Assembly (NCBI RefSeq): GCF_009766065.1
Contig: NZ_LMUE01000002.1
Coordinates: 618,514 to 682,513 of the forward strand
Direction: 5' to 3'
Origin: Dyella sp. S184
GTDB taxonomy: Bacteria > Pseudomonadota > Gammaproteobacteria > Xanthomonadales > Rhodanobacteraceae
Length of the DNA stretch: 64,000 bases
A program made the position numbers and the translations under genes. Under the pieces are notes generated by a model. That model did no database searches. It was not told where the DNA came from and was given only the letters and a program-made list of their open reading frames with translations. Positions within the stretch are counted from its first letter, which is position 1; every line of letters starts with the position of its first letter. Below, one piece after another: positions 691 to 7,611 of the stretch.

Positions 691-2451
691 TCACGGCAAC
701 GGCATGCCTGCGCGCCAGTCTGTCAATTGCAAACCATCCAGCAGCGCGACCACGGCCTGCCGTGCCTGTGCGCCATGTGTAGGCAGCACCAGCACATCGC
801 CGTCATGCGCCCAGTTGAGCAGGCCGCGTACGGCATCGAGTTCGTCGAGACATTCGATCAGCGCATCCGCTGGTACGCTCTTGCGCAGCAGTTCGTCGCG
901 CAGGATGTCGGCAACCTCACCCGACGCGCGACCGCGCATGAAGCCTTCGATATCCTTCAGCACCACGCGCCGGGGATGAAAGGCGGCAGCCACCATCGCC
1001 AGCTCGCGGATATCGGCGTCCTCGCGGTTGCCGGCCTGTCCCAGTACCAGACCAAGGCGCGCCGCACCCAGGGTTTGCGTTGCTACCTGCAGCAACCCGC
1101 GCAGCCCTTCCGGGTTATGCGCGTAATCGACGAATACCTGCATCGAGCCGTATCGCCAATGTTGCAGACGACCCGGGTTGTCGGCGTGTGCCTCACCGAA
1201 GCGTGCCAGCACGGCGGCAATGGTCGCAGCCGGGATGCCCAGTTCAGCAGCAGCCAGCGTGGCCGCCGCGATATTCGAGATGTTGTAACCGGCGCTCCCG
1301 GCGAAGCTCAGCGGCATCTGCACAATCGAACCGAGATCGTGATGGCTGCCTTGATGGAACAGGCGCAAATAACCCTCACGCACACCGCACGTACTGCCAC
1401 CTTGCTCGCGTCGCGCGCGCAGCAACGGATGCGCGTCGTCGAGCGCGAACCAGGCAAGTGGAACCGGTAGCCCATCGGCCTGCCTGACCAGCACCCCATC
1501 ATCGGCATTCAGCACCAAGGTGCCATCGGTGCCGAGTACGCGCGAGACAGTGAGCTTGACCTTAGCCAGGCCATCCAGATCGTGGATGCCATATTCGCCG
1601 AAATGATCGTCGCTGACATTGGTGACCACGGCTACGTTCGCACGCTGCACCGCGATGCCACGACGCAACATGCCACCGCGCGCAGTTTCCAGCACCGCCG
1701 CCTCGACCTGCGGTTGCCGCAGGACGACGCGTGCACCGGCAGGACCGGAGAAGTCACCGGCGTCGATTGTATGGCCGTCAACAAACACGCCATCGGTACA
1801 GCTGTGTCCGGTATGCCAGCCGTGTGCATGTGCCATCGCGGCGAGCAGGCGCACGGTAGTGGTCTTGCCATTGGAGCCGGTCACCAGGGCGACGGGGATG
1901 TCGTGCAACGACGACCAATCCACCGCGTCAGCTGCAGGCAGTTGCGACAATGGCCAGGCGCATGCACCCGTGCCCTCGCCGATCGACAACGCATCCTCGT
2001 CGATCAGCACGGTCAATCCACGTGCTTCGGCGGCCTGCACCAGTGCCAGCAGGTCCGGTCGGCGTTCGGCCGCGGCGAACGCACGCAAGGTATGCAGTGC
2101 GGAGTCTTCGTCCCAGGCAGCCGGATGACCCGGTGCATGCAGCTCCACGTCGAGTCCGGCGGCATCAGCCAGTGCCACCAGCCATGCCCATTCGTTCACT
2201 TCGGTGGCGCTGAACAGTTGGTCGATCGGTGCCGTGATCGCCAGCGCCGCGCCTCCGGCATGACGACGTACCACCAGTGGCGCATCCACCCAGCCGAGTG
2301 CCTGTCGTGCACGAACGACGTGCTTTCGCCATGCGCCAAGCAGCAAGTCATCGGGCAACACACCGACGGTTTCCAGCACCGCGCCGGCACCGTCGAAATA
2401 CAGATTGGTGCCGGTGAGGCGGCGCGAGTCGTCAAACGGCAAGGGAAGCAT
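691..2451 (-). CDS. Mur-ligase-family cyanophycin synthetase paralogue lacking the ATP-grasp domain
   Basis: This 586-residue protein starts 5 bp after the stop of cphA, so it is surely in the same operon. Residues 186-586 are a Mur-ligase module: P-loop GSNGKTTT (192-199), LETARGGMLR (254-263), the N-A-D-D turn (315-318), and DYAHNPEGL (442-450) before the C-terminal domain. Residues 131-160 match CphA 172-202 (same L-V-x-A-A-E-x-R run followed by an L/I-G-x-G turn), so the N-terminal part is CphA-like. The roughly 280-residue ATP-grasp region that lies between these parts in CphA is absent. CphA needs both modules: ATP-grasp adds Asp to the backbone and the Mur domain adds Arg to the side chain. 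This protein therefore cannot make cyanophycin alone. It may be a helper ligase, a ligase for another substrate, or a regulator. Its P-loop and DYAHNP motifs are intact, so catalytic activity is plausible. Confidence 0.85.
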   Translation of the reverse strand: MLPLPFDDSRRLTGTNLYFDGAGAVLETVGVLPDDLLLGAWRKHVVRARQALGWVDAPLVVRRHAGGAALAITAPIDQLFSATEVNEWAWLVALADAAGLDVELHAPGHPAAWDEDSALHTLRAFAAAERRPDLLALVQAAEARGLTVLIDEDALSIGEGTGACAWPLSQLPAADAVDWSSLHDIPVALVTGSNGKTTTVRLLAAMAHAHGWHTGHSCTDGVFVDGHTIDAGDFSGPAGARVVLRQPQVEAAVLETARGGMLRRGIAVQRANVAVVTNVSDDHFGEYGIHDLDGLAKVKLTVSRVLGTDGTLVLNADDGVLVRQADGLPVPLAWFALDDAHPLLRARREQGGSTCGVREGYLRLFHQGSHHDLGSIVQMPLSFAGSAGYNISNIAAATLAAAELGIPAATIAAVLARFGEAHADNPGRLQHWRYGSMQVFVDYAHNPEGLRGLLQVATQTLGAARLGLVLGQAGNREDADIRELAMVAAAFHPRRVVLKDIEGFMRGRASGEVADILRDELLRKSVPADALIECLDELDAVRGLLNWAHDGDVLVLPTHGAQARQAVVALLDGLQLTDWRAGMPLP

Positions 2452-2456
2452 CGTGC

Positions 2457-5252
2457 TCAGTCGTCACTCTCGCGGGAGAAGCGCACACCGCGCTCATCGC
2501 GCACCACATCGCCCAATCCGGCAAAGCTCGACTCGTCGAAGGATGCCTCCGTCACCGGTGGCGTGATCGGCGCCGCACTGGATTCCGTGCGAAGCTCTGA
2601 CATGCCTTCGGGACGGAACTTGATGATCTGCTTCCACGAGCGCACCAGCGCATCGGCGAATACCAGAAGCAGATCACCGGAGCGGCCCATGGCCAGTGCG
2701 GCATCGATCGCCTTCTGCTCGTCCGGGATGATCGAAATCGCCGCGTCGGGCACACCAGTCGCGCGCAGCGCGCGCGCCAGGATGCCTGGCACCTCATCAC
2801 CATCGCGGCCACGCAGGGCATCGTCACGGCGGCAGATATAGTGATCGAAGCGACCCGCCACCGCCTCGGCGATCGCCACCAGATCCTCGTCGCGACGATC
2901 GCCGGGACCAGCCAGCACCACGATGCGCCGGCCGGTCACGTCGAGACGCCCAGCCAGATCGGCCATCACCGCGACCGCGTGCGCGTTGTGGCCGTAATCG
3001 AACAGCACCTTGAACGGATGCTCGCTGTACACGTTCATGCGCCCTGGCGCCTGGAAGAACGTGGTGTCGAACGTGCGCAAGCCCTGGCGAATCGCGTCGA
3101 GCTTGATGCCCAGCGAGAACGCCATCGAGGCGGCGACCATCGCGTTCTGCACGTTGTGCAGCGCGCGCCCTTCCAGCGTGGCCGGGATCAGGTGCGTCCA
3201 CAGCAGCGGGATGTGACTGCCCTTGTCGTACAGCGTGATCATCGCCCCGTTGACGCCGGCCTCGAGCGCACAGGCGCGGCCACCGGCACGCACATGCTCG
3301 CGCACCAGCGCGTGCGACGGGTTCATGGTGACGTAGCAGATCACCTTGGCGTCGGTGTAGCCGGACATCTTCAGCACCAGCGGATCGTCGGCATTCAACA
3401 CTGCGCAATCGGTGGCCACCTCGATCACGATGCGCTTGACTTCGGCGAGCTGCTCCAGCGTGTCGATGCCCTTGAGGCCGAGATGATCGGACTGCACGTT
3501 GAGCACCGCACCGACGTTGACCTTGGTCACGCCCATGCCGGCACGCAACAGCCCGCCGCGCGCAGTCTCCAGCACGGCGATATCGATCTGCGGATCGGAC
3601 AGCACCATGCGCGCCGACACCGGCCCGGTCATGTCGCCCTCGACCGTGCGCTGACCGTCGATGTAGACACCATCGGTGGTGGTGAGACCCGGCGTGTAGC
3701 CAGCCATCTTGGTGATGTGCGCCAGCATGCGCGCGGTGGTGGTCTTGCCGTTGGTGCCGGTGAGCGCCGCGATCGGCACCCGCGCCGGCGAGCCAGGCGG
3801 AAACAGCATGTCGATCACCGGTCCGGCCGCGTCGCGCGGCGTGCCCTCGCTCGGACTCACGTGCATGCGGAAACCCGGCGCAGCGTTGACCTCGCAAATG
3901 CCGCCACCGATGCTCTTGTAACTCTCGGCGATATTGGTCGTGAGGAAATCCACGCCGCCCACATCCAGCCCGATCGCGCGGATCGCGCGCACCGCCATGT
4001 CGCGGTTGTCGGGATGGATGATGTCGGTGACATCGGTGGCGGTGCCGCCGGTGGACAGGTTCGCGGTGGAACGCAGGTAGACGATCTCGTCCGCCTTCGG
4101 CACCGACGTGGCGGTGTAGCCGACGCGCTCCATCATCATGGTCGCCTGCGCGTCCAGCTCGATCCGGGTCAGCACCTTCTCATGGCCGACGCCGCGACGC
4201 GGATCGGCGTTCACGACCTCGACCAGCTGCGCGATCGTGCGGTTGCCATCGCCGATCACATGACCCGGCGTGCGCCGCGTGGCAGCGACCAGTTCGCCGT
4301 TAACTACCAGCAACCGATGATCGTCGCCGCTGAGGAAGTTCTCCACGATCACCGAGCGCGAGTGTTCGCGCGCGGCCTTGAAACCTTCGATGACTTCCTC
4401 ATCGGTCATCAGGTGAATCGAGATGCCGCGACCATGGTTGCCGTTGAACGGCTTGGTCACCACCGGCACACCGAGCCGGCGTGCCGCGCGCAACGCGCCT
4501 TCCTCGTTTTGCACCAGCTCCTGCTTGGGCACCGGCAGGCCTAGCGAGGCGAGGATCTTGTTGGTTTCTTCCTTGTCGCTGGCCAGCTCCACCGCGATGT
4601 GCGGTGTGCGCCCGGTCACCGTGGCCTGAATGCGCTGCTGGTATTTGCCGTGGCCCAGCTGCACCAGCGACTGATCGTTGAGGCGCAACCACGGAATGTC
4701 GCGTTCCTCCGCTGCGCGCACCAGCGATGCGGTGGACGGGCCGAGCGCGCGGCGCTGCGCATAGCGGATGAACTCGTCGCGTTCGGCCGGCCATTCCCAG
4801 CCTTCCGGTACGTTGCCACGCACTTGAAGTTCCACCGGCAGCAACGAGGACAGCAGGCGCAGGGCCAGCTCGCCGGCGGCGACGCCTTCCTCCTTCTGCA
4901 CGTACTCGTAGACCACTGAATACACGCCTGGCTTGTCGACGCTGCGCGTCTTGCCGAAGGTGACATCCTCGCCGGCGACATTCTGCAATTCGATCGCCAC
5001 GTGTTCGAGTACATGGCCTAGCCAGGTACCGTCGCCTTCGCGCATGCGGCGGATGAAGCCGCCAGGCTCGCGGTACGAGCAGCCGTGTTCGGCCAGCCCC
5101 GGCAATGCAGCGATCAAACCGTCGACAAAGGTCGGTCCCAAGCGGCCGGTTGGCCATTGTTCCAGCTCACCCAGATCCAGCTCGAGCCGGATCACCGGGA
5201 AATGCGCATACAGCGACGGGCCTACAAAAACGGAACGTTCCAGAATGCGCAT
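2457..5252 (-). CDS. cphA: Cyanophycin synthetase
   Basis: CphA makes cyanophycin, a poly-aspartate chain with arginine on each side chain, from Asp, Arg and ATP in the cytoplasm. All three modules are present: the N-terminal domain (1-160), an ATP-grasp module (about 210-480, with KPFNGNHGRGIS at 267-278 and EVNAAPGFR at 454-462), and a Mur-ligase module (about 490-885, P-loop GTNGKTTT at 499-506, LETARGGLLR at 561-570, FDYGHN at 751-756). At 931 residues the length is normal for the family. ATG 5252 was chosen over an upstream in-frame ATG (5384) because it follows AAGGA at good spacing and gives the usual M-R-I-L beginning. It lies 55 bp after cphB and 5 bp before the ATP-grasp-less paralogue. 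Confidence 0.97.
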   Translation of the reverse strand: MRILERSVFVGPSLYAHFPVIRLELDLGELEQWPTGRLGPTFVDGLIAALPGLAEHGCSYREPGGFIRRMREGDGTWLGHVLEHVAIELQNVAGEDVTFGKTRSVDKPGVYSVVYEYVQKEEGVAAGELALRLLSSLLPVELQVRGNVPEGWEWPAERDEFIRYAQRRALGPSTASLVRAAEERDIPWLRLNDQSLVQLGHGKYQQRIQATVTGRTPHIAVELASDKEETNKILASLGLPVPKQELVQNEEGALRAARRLGVPVVTKPFNGNHGRGISIHLMTDEEVIEGFKAAREHSRSVIVENFLSGDDHRLLVVNGELVAATRRTPGHVIGDGNRTIAQLVEVVNADPRRGVGHEKVLTRIELDAQATMMMERVGYTATSVPKADEIVYLRSTANLSTGGTATDVTDIIHPDNRDMAVRAIRAIGLDVGGVDFLTTNIAESYKSIGGGICEVNAAPGFRMHVSPSEGTPRDAAGPVIDMLFPPGSPARVPIAALTGTNGKTTTARMLAHITKMAGYTPGLTTTDGVYIDGQRTVEGDMTGPVSARMVLSDPQIDIAVLETARGGLLRAGMGVTKVNVGAVLNVQSDHLGLKGIDTLEQLAEVKRIVIEVATDCAVLNADDPLVLKMSGYTDAKVICYVTMNPSHALVREHVRAGGRACALEAGVNGAMITLYDKGSHIPLLWTHLIPATLEGRALHNVQNAMVAASMAFSLGIKLDAIRQGLRTFDTTFFQAPGRMNVYSEHPFKVLFDYGHNAHAVAVMADLAGRLDVTGRRIVVLAGPGDRRDEDLVAIAEAVAGRFDHYICRRDDALRGRDGDEVPGILARALRATGVPDAAISIIPDEQKAIDAALAMGRSGDLLLVFADALVRSWKQIIKFRPEGMSELRTESSAAPITPPVTEASFDESSFAGLGDVVRDERGVRFSRESDD

Positions 5253-5307: not shown

Positions 5308-6243
5308 TCAGGCAATTTGTTTCGATGTCGCCAGCGTACCCGCCGAAGCGTGGCGCGTCTGCATGTTGAAGGTAGCACCAGCAATCAGTACATGAATGGT
5401 CATGCCCAGCATGCACACCGTATCGTGCTCGCCGGCATCGGCCATCGACGAGAACTGCAGATTGCCTGCGTCAAGCACGGTGACCGCGCCGCTGCCCTCG
5501 ACCTCAAGCGTATTGTCCGGGCGAATGAATGCCGCCGTGTCCTCGTCCAGACCGATGCCGACCGCGTAGGGGTTATACGCCAGCGCGGCCATCAGGCGAC
5601 CCAACCGGTCACGCTGGCTGAAATGCTGGTCGATGATGAAACGATTGGTCAGGCCCAGTCCGGGTGCCAGCCTTACGCTGCCGGCGGTGGGCGACAATCC
5701 CTCCTTGCCGAACGCGATCATGTGTTCACTGAGTATGCTGGCGCCCGCGCTGGTACCGCCGACGTGCACGCCACGTGCATTCAACGCACGGATTCGCTGC
5801 GCCACCGGCGTGCCACCGAGCATGGTCGACAAGCGCAACTGGTTGCCGCCGGTGAAAAAGATGCCCGTCGCCTGATCGAGCCTCTGCAACCGGTTCTTTT
5901 CCTCGGTATCGCGGCGCATGTCGAAATCAAGCACGCTGACTGCGCTGGCACCGAGACCAGTGAAAAGTCTTTCGTAACGCGAGCCGGTATCGGCAAGCTG
6001 GCTCGCCGTCGGAATCACCACGATATTCGCGTCAGCGCCACCACACAGGCGAACGAATCGTTCAAGAATGCGCGGGTCGTTCTCTTTCTCCTCCGCGCCG
6101 CCGATCGGTACGATCCATCCGCGCTGCTCCCCTTCCAACACCCTGCTGGGACTCATCCTGCCCTCATCAATTTTGTTCTCATCTGTTTTCGGTTTCATGC
6201 GGTTCTCTGAGTCTATTGGATCGATAACGGTCATCCGATCCAT
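5308..6243 (-). CDS. cphB: Cyanophycinase (intracellular)
   Basis: Serine exopeptidase of family S51 that cuts cyanophycin into beta-Asp-Arg dipeptides. The nucleophile elbow GGTSAGAS is visible with Ser at about residue 165 (counted from the first ATG), as is the family's FFTGGNQLRL segment (129-138). There is no signal peptide, so it acts on the cytoplasmic granule and is not one of the secreted enzymes that attack external cyanophycin. The start is uncertain: ATGs at 6243, 6234 and 6198 are in frame. The one at 6234 has the better-spaced AGGA, and the conserved fold begins only near residue 40. It sits 17 bp after iadA and 55 bp before cphA, so polymer synthesis and breakdown appear co-transcribed. 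Confidence 0.95.
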   Translation of the reverse strand: MDRMTVIDPIDSENRMKPKTDENKIDEGRMSPSRVLEGEQRGWIVPIGGAEEKENDPRILERFVRLCGGADANIVVIPTASQLADTGSRYERLFTGLGASAVSVLDFDMRRDTEEKNRLQRLDQATGIFFTGGNQLRLSTMLGGTPVAQRIRALNARGVHVGGTSAGASILSEHMIAFGKEGLSPTAGSVRLAPGLGLTNRFIIDQHFSQRDRLGRLMAALAYNPYAVGIGLDEDTAAFIRPDNTLEVEGSGAVTVLDAGNLQFSSMADAGEHDTVCMLGMTIHVLIAGATFNMQTRHASAGTLATSKQIA

Positions 6244-6260
6244 CCTGACGCATCAAACGT

Positions 6261-7433
6261 CTACACAGCGTTCTCAAACGTGCCACGATGTTCGATGTGG
6301 CCATTGCGCACATGCACGATGCCGCCGGCGATCACCTCGTGCGCAGCTCCCGCCTCGTCCAGCACCACCAGATCCGCATCGGCACCGACCTGTATGCGAC
6401 CTTTGGCCGGCAGCCGCAACAACCGCGCCGGATTGCTGGTGAACGCCGGCAGCGCGCGCTCCAGCGGCACGCCACGTTGCAGTACCTCATTCAGGGTTTG
6501 CAGCAGCGCACCGGACTCGCCCACGCCCATCCGACAGACGTGACCTTCGTGATCGAATACCGGCAGGCAGCCGCCGGCGTCCGAGCTGATCGTGATGCGT
6601 TCAGCCGGTGCGGCGCTGTCCAGGAAACGGATCAGGCCATCGGCCGCGCTCCAAGCATCCTCGCCCTCCTCGACCGGAAACGCGGTGAGGTCGATCGTGC
6701 AGCCTCGCCCGGCCAGTTCCAGCGCCTCGTCGAACAGCGCCTTGCGGCGGTTCACGTGGGTGGGATGGAACACGCGCGGCGGCAGTTCGCTCTGCTCCAG
6801 CGCGCGGCGCACCAGGTCCAGTCCGCGCGGACCATCGCCCAGATGCAGGTGCAGCACGCCGGCCTTGCCCGTCATCAACCCGGCGACATGCGCGTCGGCG
6901 GCCAGTCGCAGCAGCTCGTCCAGCGTTGGCTGGCTGGAGCGATGATCGCTGATCGCCACTTCGCCGATGCCGATCAGCGCCTCGATCAGCACCAGATCGC
7001 CGCGGACCGTGCCAGTGAGCGTTCGGGGTGGCACGTGATAGCCGCCGGTAAAGGCCAGCGCGCTCAATCCTTCCTCGCGCAACGCATAGACCGTCGCCAG
7101 CAGGTCGCGCGGGCCGCGCGCCACATCGTCCGTGCCGAGCAGGCCGATTACCGTGGTGATGCCGGCACGGGTAAAGCGCGACACGCCGAGCGGCGGCACC
7201 CGTGTGCGGAAACCCGCCTCGCCACCACCGCCGGTTACGTGCACGTGCGCGTCGATCAGCCCCGGAATCAGCCGGCGTCCCTGCAGGTCGATGGTCTCCA
7301 CCGCCAGTGTGGCCGGCAGATCGAACAGCCCCGTTCCCATCCACAGGATGCGACCACCGCCCAGCAGCAGATGCTGCTGCCCCAGCGGCTCGGGCGCATG
7401 GACCTGCGCGTTGCGTAAAAGCATGAGATTCAT
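6261..7433 (-). CDS. iadA: Isoaspartyl dipeptidase
   Basis: Metal-dependent amidohydrolase (390 aa) of the IadA family that hydrolyses beta-aspartyl dipeptides. Visible features are the HVH metal motif (H63 and H65 in LIDAHVHVTGGG), the AISDHRS segment, a lysine in the TGKAG region likely to be the carbamylated metal bridge, HPTHVNR, and the SSDAGG aspartate. Family members split iso-Asp dipeptides. Next to cyanophycinase, its inferred job is to split beta-Asp-Arg into free Asp and Arg, completing cyanophycin catabolism. ATG 7433 was chosen because the conserved beta strand begins there; an upstream in-frame ATG (7538) would add 35 residues of unlikely composition. It is the first gene of the cluster. 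Confidence 0.93.
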   Translation of the reverse strand: MNLMLLRNAQVHAPEPLGQQHLLLGGGRILWMGTGLFDLPATLAVETIDLQGRRLIPGLIDAHVHVTGGGGEAGFRTRVPPLGVSRFTRAGITTVIGLLGTDDVARGPRDLLATVYALREEGLSALAFTGGYHVPPRTLTGTVRGDLVLIEALIGIGEVAISDHRSSQPTLDELLRLAADAHVAGLMTGKAGVLHLHLGDGPRGLDLVRRALEQSELPPRVFHPTHVNRRKALFDEALELAGRGCTIDLTAFPVEEGEDAWSAADGLIRFLDSAAPAERITISSDAGGCLPVFDHEGHVCRMGVGESGALLQTLNEVLQRGVPLERALPAFTSNPARLLRLPAKGRIQVGADADLVVLDEAGAAHEVIAGGIVHVRNGHIEHRGTFENAV

Positions 7434-7611
7434 CGGTGCAGCGTGCCGATCACCCACGATGGCGTCAAGCAGGATCGGGGCTGGGGACTTATGGCAAGTA
7501 TCCGCGACCATACGCCACGAGCACCCCGACTCGACCAATCACGCCAAGACCGCCACAATGATCAGCTAAGCTCCTGAGTCCCCGCATGTCCGATACCCCG
7601 GCACTCCCTGC

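Follow-up and report, generated by a model that had tools for sequence, protein, structure and literature searches.

Cyanophycin is usually ascribed to one enzyme. In CphA1, lengthening the chain by Asp is the task of the ATP-grasp (G) domain, Arg is attached to the Asp side chain by the Mur ligase (M) domain, and the N domain holds the polymer (PMC9262961, PMC9427784). CphA2, a CphA-derived protein of cyanobacteria, is reported to use one active site to polymerise beta-Asp-Arg (PMC10206079). The ATP-grasp domain of CphA2 houses this site. A chain analogue lies between the N domain and Mcore of CphA1 (PMC9427784), and CphA1 N domains bear a zinc-peptidase motif, a Cys followed by HxxEH, that makes primers (PMC9262961). 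Here we describe a gene, denoted MUR, that follows a full-length cphA on the minus strand of a 64,000-nucleotide stretch of Dyella sp. S184 (contig NZ_LMUE01000002.1, positions 618,514 to 682,513; the window). Its product is a CphA-type protein that consists of the N and M domains, with the core of the G domain deleted and a stub left behind. A first-pass annotation of the window had placed the open reading frame (ORF) at 691..2451 and its start 5 bp past cphA; the ORF is real, encoding 586 residues from an ATG on the minus strand, and 5 nt lie between the cphA stop codon (2457-2459) and the MUR ATG (2451). Tandem cphA copies are already in print (PMC5178258, PMC10687191); a description of a MUR-type protein was not found among the papers listed in searches of open-access literature, subscription papers and preprints being outside those searches.

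CphA-type N and M domains with a stub of the G domain

In a Pfam scan of MUR, only two Mur domains rose above cut-off, PF08245 (Mur_ligase_M, 63.5 bits, cut-off 24) and PF02875 (Mur_ligase_C, 40.9 bits, cut-off 28.4), which makes the protein a member of the Mur ligase superfamily. No ATP-grasp family appeared among the five Pfam families or the best 25 of 29 NCBIfam families; PF18921, the sequence model for the CphA N domain, had no match in the Pfam scan, and PF21917 reached 15.7 bits over residues 128-160, short of its cut-off of 23.9. The cyanophycin synthetase model TIGR02068 covered residues 183-559 only (model positions 477-849) at 340.8 bits, under its cut-off of 850. Over the 377 aligned positions of this Mur part, MUR is 35% identical to the neighbouring CphA. 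Sequence matches in the PDB were led by five entries for CphA1, the strongest at E 1.1e-63 and each of them confined to residues 183-560; Mur ligases came next. Ahead of the M domain (residues 183-586; 694..1905, minus strand), about 285 CphA residues, from 203 to about 488, are gone and about 23 residues stand in their place, much as the first-pass annotation had described in proposing a loss of some 280 residues between the N-terminal end and the Mur part. A substrate already assigned outside cyanophycin metabolism did not come to light either, the families matched in Pfam, NCBIfam and the PDB giving MUR none of its own.

The N-terminal part was assessed through structure prediction. AlphaFold modelled full-length MUR with a predicted local distance difference test (pLDDT) score of 94.3 and a predicted template-modelling (pTM) score of 0.94, and residues 1-182 alone with a pLDDT of 94.5. 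A PDB search with the 1-182 model placed CphA1 or CphA2 in each of the first ten positions (E 4.0e-5 to 4.3e-3, probability 1.00, TM-scores (TMq) 0.47-0.58, root-mean-square deviation (rmsd) 5.6-7.6 Å); the eleventh was a designed protein (E 0.012, probability 0.87), and the remainder were weaker. These top matches rule out an unrelated N-terminal domain and, at moderate TM-scores, uphold relatedness: the predicted fold of the N domain (residues 1-106; 2134..2451, minus strand) is related to, not identical with, that of the CphA N domain. When the full-length model was aligned along whole CphA1 chains, the best four gave TMq 0.76-0.82 (rmsd 6.8-8.5 Å), and none of the MurE chains listed exceeded 0.53. 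This difference suggests a match of the N domain as well, roughly at its CphA1 place.

Between the N and M domains lies a stub of the start of the G domain (residues 107-182; 1906..2133, minus strand). With a profile built from 75 MUR N-terminal parts, hhalign paired residues 107-162 with CphA 146-204, where the G domain begins (score 32.8, E 0.0011 for this single comparison, probability 20%); 40 column-shuffled templates scored at most 21.1 and a reversed template 14.3. An earlier, poorer profile of the N part had given E 0.014 and a probability of 1.5%, and residues 1-128 alone E 0.74. Sequence support for kinship of the N parts is limited to residues 107-162, and it is the richer profiles together with the structure that settle the kinship. 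The first-pass pairing of MUR 131-160 with CphA 172-202 stands in this alignment; among the motif marks it had named, G158 and G160 are invariant across the MUR family, and AAExR is not. That annotation had also called the ATP-grasp module excised, an apt word because a remnant of the module persists in MUR.

Family-wide comparisons rest on 103 MUR ORFs, of which length and start filters kept 85 and redundancy reduction 71; with the window these make 72 rows, 71 of them distinct, since L001 is the window's own copy. The conservation alignment holds 63 distinct rows, those with a DUF559 insert (see below) having been omitted, not edited. HxxEH is found in none of the 72 MUR rows, and TE(V/L/I)NE in all 72. 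The window's version, TEVNE (residues 83-87; 2191..2205, minus strand), lies on helix 76-98 of the model, in the place of the CphA1 zinc-peptidase helix, an equivalence that we infer from the order of secondary-structure elements, with no superposition.

The M domain retains its catalytic residues across the aligned rows. Fifty-seven columns are invariant among the 63 aligned rows, and K196, E255, D282, H283, K299, R428, D442, H445 and N446 are invariant in 63/63. The P-loop TGSNGKTT (residues 191-198; 1858..1881, minus strand), which includes K196, and DYAHNP (residues 442-447; 1111..1128, minus strand), which includes D442, H445 and N446, are both present, as the first-pass claim of a full Mur ligase had it. 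Strict patterns missed one of the 72 rows for the P-loop, one for D(Y/F)(A/G)HN and two for N-DH-G, all of which were retained. K299 aligns with a lysine of the genome's own MurE, the one that MurE carries in carbamylated form. The counterpart of K196 in TeCphA1 is K499, at which replacement by Ala impairs the enzyme (PMC9427784), and D282-H283 (1603..1608, minus strand) pairs with SuCphA1 D585-H586, the residues mutated to inactivate the M domain (PMC9262961). The invariance of these Mur catalytic residues across the aligned family speaks against MUR as a mere regulator.

Other positions of the M domain set MUR apart from CphA. A loop at residues 493-506 (934..975, minus strand), in the place of the DNPR loop of MurE, is two residues longer than in CphA: the stretch from P493 to R506 counts 14 residues in 74/75 MUR rows and 15 in the remaining one, as against 12 in 84/87 CphA rows (60/60 operon, 24/27 other), the exceptions being two rows of 11 residues and one of 0 from a truncated protein. 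The genome's own MurE holds TDDNPR here, in the loop by which MurE selects its amino acid. The second Arg of GDRR (R787) occurs in 87/87 CphA rows and in 0/75 MUR rows, which have Glu (30), Asp (19), Ser (9), Gly (9) or others (8), and at position 286, where CphA mostly has Leu, 96% of MUR rows have Glu. The longer loop, the GDRR change and E286 may point to an altered donor or acceptor.

A tree of 75 M domains was built from one in three of the MUR and operon-CphA rows plus extra rows, minus the duplicates L112 and L113, with the root not fixed. It set 27 MUR rows as one group against 47 CphA rows (support 100/100, 100% of 200 bootstraps) and separated the two by a long branch. Since none of the 47 CphA rows falls within the MUR group, a recent duplication of the adjoining cphA is ruled out; the family is instead an old sister lineage of the sampled CphA M domains. 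The simplest history is an old duplication of a CphA-type gene, then loss of the ATP-grasp core. The unrooted tree allows both this and an ancestral fusion of N and M, and deletion is favoured because the G-domain stub remains.

Genomic context and distribution

MUR is the last gene of an operon in the window, transcribed in the order iadA, cphB, cphA, MUR. All four genes lie on the minus strand: iadA (isoaspartyl dipeptidase, TIGR01975) at 6261..7538, cphB (cyanophycinase, TIGR02069) at 5308..6243 and cphA (full-length cyanophycin synthetase, 931 residues counted from MRIL) at 2457..5252. The cphA product scores 1104 bits against TIGR02068 and is of the Acinetobacter/Tatumella type (1044 bits to 7lgm, 1034 to 7lgn and 768 to 7lg5). 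It is also the sole other match of MUR in a protein search of the window's own genome (E <= 0.001). Promoter and tandem-repeat scans gave nothing useful.

The same two-domain protein follows cphA in many other genomes. A search of genome contigs returned 98 MUR relatives, of which 80 were kept as loci, and cphA lies directly upstream on the same strand in 78/80 (76 by script; L069 and L076 from coordinates). Of the two others, L051 begins at a contig edge, and in L107 MUR is not adjacent to cphA. The gap between cphA and MUR is at most 55 nt in 60 of the 76 loci measured; the five longest gaps (> 500 nt) are an artefact of the DUF559 insert. In the stretches as fetched, cphB accompanies MUR in 73/80 loci and iadA in 39/80. 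The family ranges from Xanthomonadales and other Proteobacteria to metagenome-assembled genomes (MAGs) of Gemmatimonadota and Acidobacteriota. Misbinned contigs could account for the matches in Holophagaceae and Geothrix MAGs, which are 55-58% identical; in the other Acidobacteriota and Gemmatimonadota MAGs the identity is 42-49%. In the alphaproteobacteria Ruegeria and Shinella, cphB-cphA-MUR is found on plasmids, with MUR annotated just as 'Mur ligase family protein'.

We also surveyed four overlapping genome samples, each of which includes the window's genome. Except in the family sample, scoring was limited to three candidates per genome; the match thresholds were 1e-40 for the order and 1e-60 for the class. 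In the family sample, 31/197 genomes match, each with MUR or MUR fragments adjoining CphA or its cut-off end. In the order sample 107/397 match, 96 of them at MUR strength (one, G655, a fragment). Among the 11 others, G668 has the start of a MUR behind cphA, ended by the contig edge, CphA runs off the contig in G610, G698 and G724 bear a Burkholderia-type CphA pair, and G613, G633, G641, G649, G661 and G665 are without a TIGR02068 match over cut-off; the last, G703, is taken up below. The class sample yielded 26/377 matching genomes, 11 with MUR, beside CphA in 11/11. Full-length MUR occurs in 5/398 genomes of the phylum sample, beside CphA in 5/5, and 24 further genomes there have a CphA-type match at E < 1e-80 and no MUR. 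A strict partnership with CphA of the window's type was considered and is not upheld: G703 has such a CphA and no MUR on the rest of its contig, and in one genus MUR is present in G1046 but lacking in G1111 and G1166, both of which have CphA.

Separately, the Thermoanaerobaculum MAG contig of L107 (3-14621) holds two cphA-cphB pairs with MUR between them on the opposite strand, adjoining neither cphA.

Possible roles of MUR

The computations show the architecture of MUR, its catalytic residues, its place in the operon and how often it occurs together with CphA; from these we infer an activity, an acceptor and a donor. Our leading but tentative reading, to which we give a little less than even weight, is that MUR acts in trans, as an active side-chain ligase, on the chains of the neighbouring CphA, possibly with a donor or acceptor state unlike that of CphA. 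Its ancestor would be a CphA-type enzyme that lost the ATP-grasp core and kept the two domains flanking the chain end in the CphA1 side-chain reaction, the polymer-holding N domain and the Mur ligase. Such a protein would bind the chain end and run the side-chain reaction with no elongation. In an ATP-dependent reaction on cyanophycin made by CphA, it would phosphorylate a free Asp side-chain carboxylate, on a naked, de-argininated or last-added residue, then join an amino acid to it. The amino acid or acceptor state would probably differ from that of the CphA M domain because the loop and active-site positions differ family-wide. An altered donor is chemically plausible, since CphAs themselves accept lysine, ornithine or citrulline (PMC8050183). 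It is possible, though we think it doubtful, that MUR decorates cyanophycin with a non-Arg amino acid or at a second position, in a two-enzyme system that makes a chemically distinct polymer.

Several observations weigh against a side-chain ligase acting in trans. The operon CphAs keep their own M motifs (P-loop, DHLG and DY-HN in 60/60 rows), so that the polymer could be made without another side-chain ligase. Other strict patterns are found in most of these CphAs (LE-ARGG 51/60, GDRRDED 53/60, one ATP-grasp pattern 47/60, E-NAAPG 59/60); because they retain their own motifs, MUR is probably additional to CphA, not compensating for it. The loop that distinguishes MUR varies among CphAs too, and the neighbourhoods of MUR that were examined show no recurring gene for another amino acid. 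The full-length model matches other CphA1 chains listed less well (TMq 0.54-0.68), and a whole-chain rmsd of 6.8-8.5 Å makes the modelled domain placement approximate only. Nor are the two genes always together: G703 has a CphA of the window's type (60% identical) and no MUR on the 5.6 kb left of its contig, 15 of the 26 matching class-sample genomes have CphA-type matches only, and three MURs were not seen beside cphA, those of G607 (on separate contigs), L107 and G599 (CphA end only, at a contig edge).

The close spacing of the two genes would also fit a rather unlikely role as partner subunit, in which MUR forms mixed oligomers with CphA and alters how fast CphA works, how it oligomerises or how it handles chains, the chemistry of MUR itself being secondary. 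With gaps this short co-translation is likely, and CphA1 is a tetramer whose dimer or tetramer state affects primer-independent activity (PMC9262961); but the invariance of the catalytic residues would then be unnecessary, and MUR is also found apart from cphA in G607 and L107. That complete set of Mur catalytic residues would also serve a starter enzyme, which would turn free Asp or a very short chain into a primer for CphA to lengthen by adding Arg, or some other amino acid, to it. We regard this as unlikely: the N domain that MUR has kept suggests that its substrate is a chain, and a starter is less needed where the operon CphAs have the primer-making HxxEH in 60/60 rows, with the upstream Cys in 55/60.

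The longer loop and changed M-domain positions, together with the place of MUR at the end of the window's operon after iadA, cphB and cphA, could instead indicate another molecule under the operon's regulation, with MUR capping the alpha-carboxylate chain end or modifying the beta-Asp-Arg dipeptides released by cyanophycinase. This seems improbable, given that the N domain is retained in a roughly CphA-like placement and that four stretches as fetched (L156, L157, Ruegeria and Shinella) have cphB-cphA-MUR with no iadA. Degenerate CphA-like proteins do occur elsewhere, yet a decaying duplicate without function is already contradicted by conservation and is very improbable: 57 columns are invariant in 63 distinct rows from Xanthomonadales to Acidobacteriota MAGs, and MUR is full-length in genomes that measure about 2 Mb.

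That the operon holds a further, conserved ligase in several phyla suggests that, in a large group of bacteria, a second enzyme takes care of the composition, initiation or turnover of cyanophycin. If non-Arg decoration were true, many environmental bacteria would make a distinct cyanophycin, with CphA building the chain and MUR editing its side chains. As a module for a single reaction, at the side chain and with no elongation, MUR could be assayed apart from polymerisation, and it would be useful for studying the side-chain amino-acid choice of CphA and for tailored polymers.

Related proteins and an inserted element

MUR has in common with CphA1 (7lg5, 7lgj, 7lgq, 7wae, 7lgn, 7lgm) the N-domain fold, the start of the G domain and a complete catalytic M domain; unlike CphA1, it has neither the ATP-grasp core nor HxxEH, its M loop is two residues longer and the second Arg of GDRR is replaced. 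With MurE it shares the Mur fold and catalytic residues, whereas its N domain is CphA-like and MurE has an N-terminal nucleotide-sugar domain of its own; the MurE model TIGR01085 gives MUR 90.3 bits (cut-off 257.3), and the genome's own MurE, at 536 bits, is encoded elsewhere. CphA2 (8fxi, 8fxh) is likewise CphA-derived and has an N domain without the peptidase motif (for CphA2, PMC9262961), but the module that polymerises beta-Asp-Arg is the one lost in MUR, where the Pfam scan found no ATP-grasp domain.

Burkholderia-type clusters also place a shortened CphA paralogue beside a full CphA. We take this short tandem copy to be the protein called CphA'. The copy in L154 (730 residues) keeps N and G and has lost the end of M, the opposite of the loss in MUR. 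The two suggest a recurring pattern in which the synthetase is duplicated and one of two catalytic modules is dropped. A full CphA with a short CphA copy is found in L163 (6294-11182; G724) and L164 (600-5371; G698), and a third sampled congener, G706, has MUR, as if the Burkholderia-type pair and the CphA-MUR pair replaced each other within that genus.

Two further groups of CphA-like proteins were noted. In the same order, the f95 family (L215 5581-8028, L216 5403-8246, L217 3925-6411, L218 4310-6553; 750-950 residues) has the usual Mur motifs and a degenerate-looking ATP-grasp, in genomes without a TIGR02068 match over cut-off; these proteins may represent another lineage in which the elongation module is being lost. 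On Deinococcus plasmids, a second CphA-like protein combines a full Mur part with ATP-grasp matches that are only weak (L144 4699-7215, 838 residues; L143 5684-8183). In L143 its sequence is divided between two ORFs that overlap, and these lie behind a cluster of cphA, isoaspartyl peptidase and cyanophycinase genes.

Some MUR genes are themselves interrupted. In L070 (7290-7801) and also L028, L029, L069, L074, L076, L077, L078 and L087, from Pseudoxanthomonas, Luteimonas, a Lysobacter MAG and relatives, a DUF559 element sits in frame in the loop past the N-domain helix, at about residues 95-108, and leaves the frame open through the whole MUR gene. Versions of MUR with 750-870 residues were considered as a larger gene; in the three tested (L070, L076 and L029) the extra length is this element, not an ATP-grasp module. 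The insert in these three encodes a DUF559 domain, a restriction-like endonuclease, and was recognised in the other loci from translations. In the tested loci it is bounded by terminal inverted repeats of 46-52 nt, 86-93% complementary, with 413-420 nt between them.
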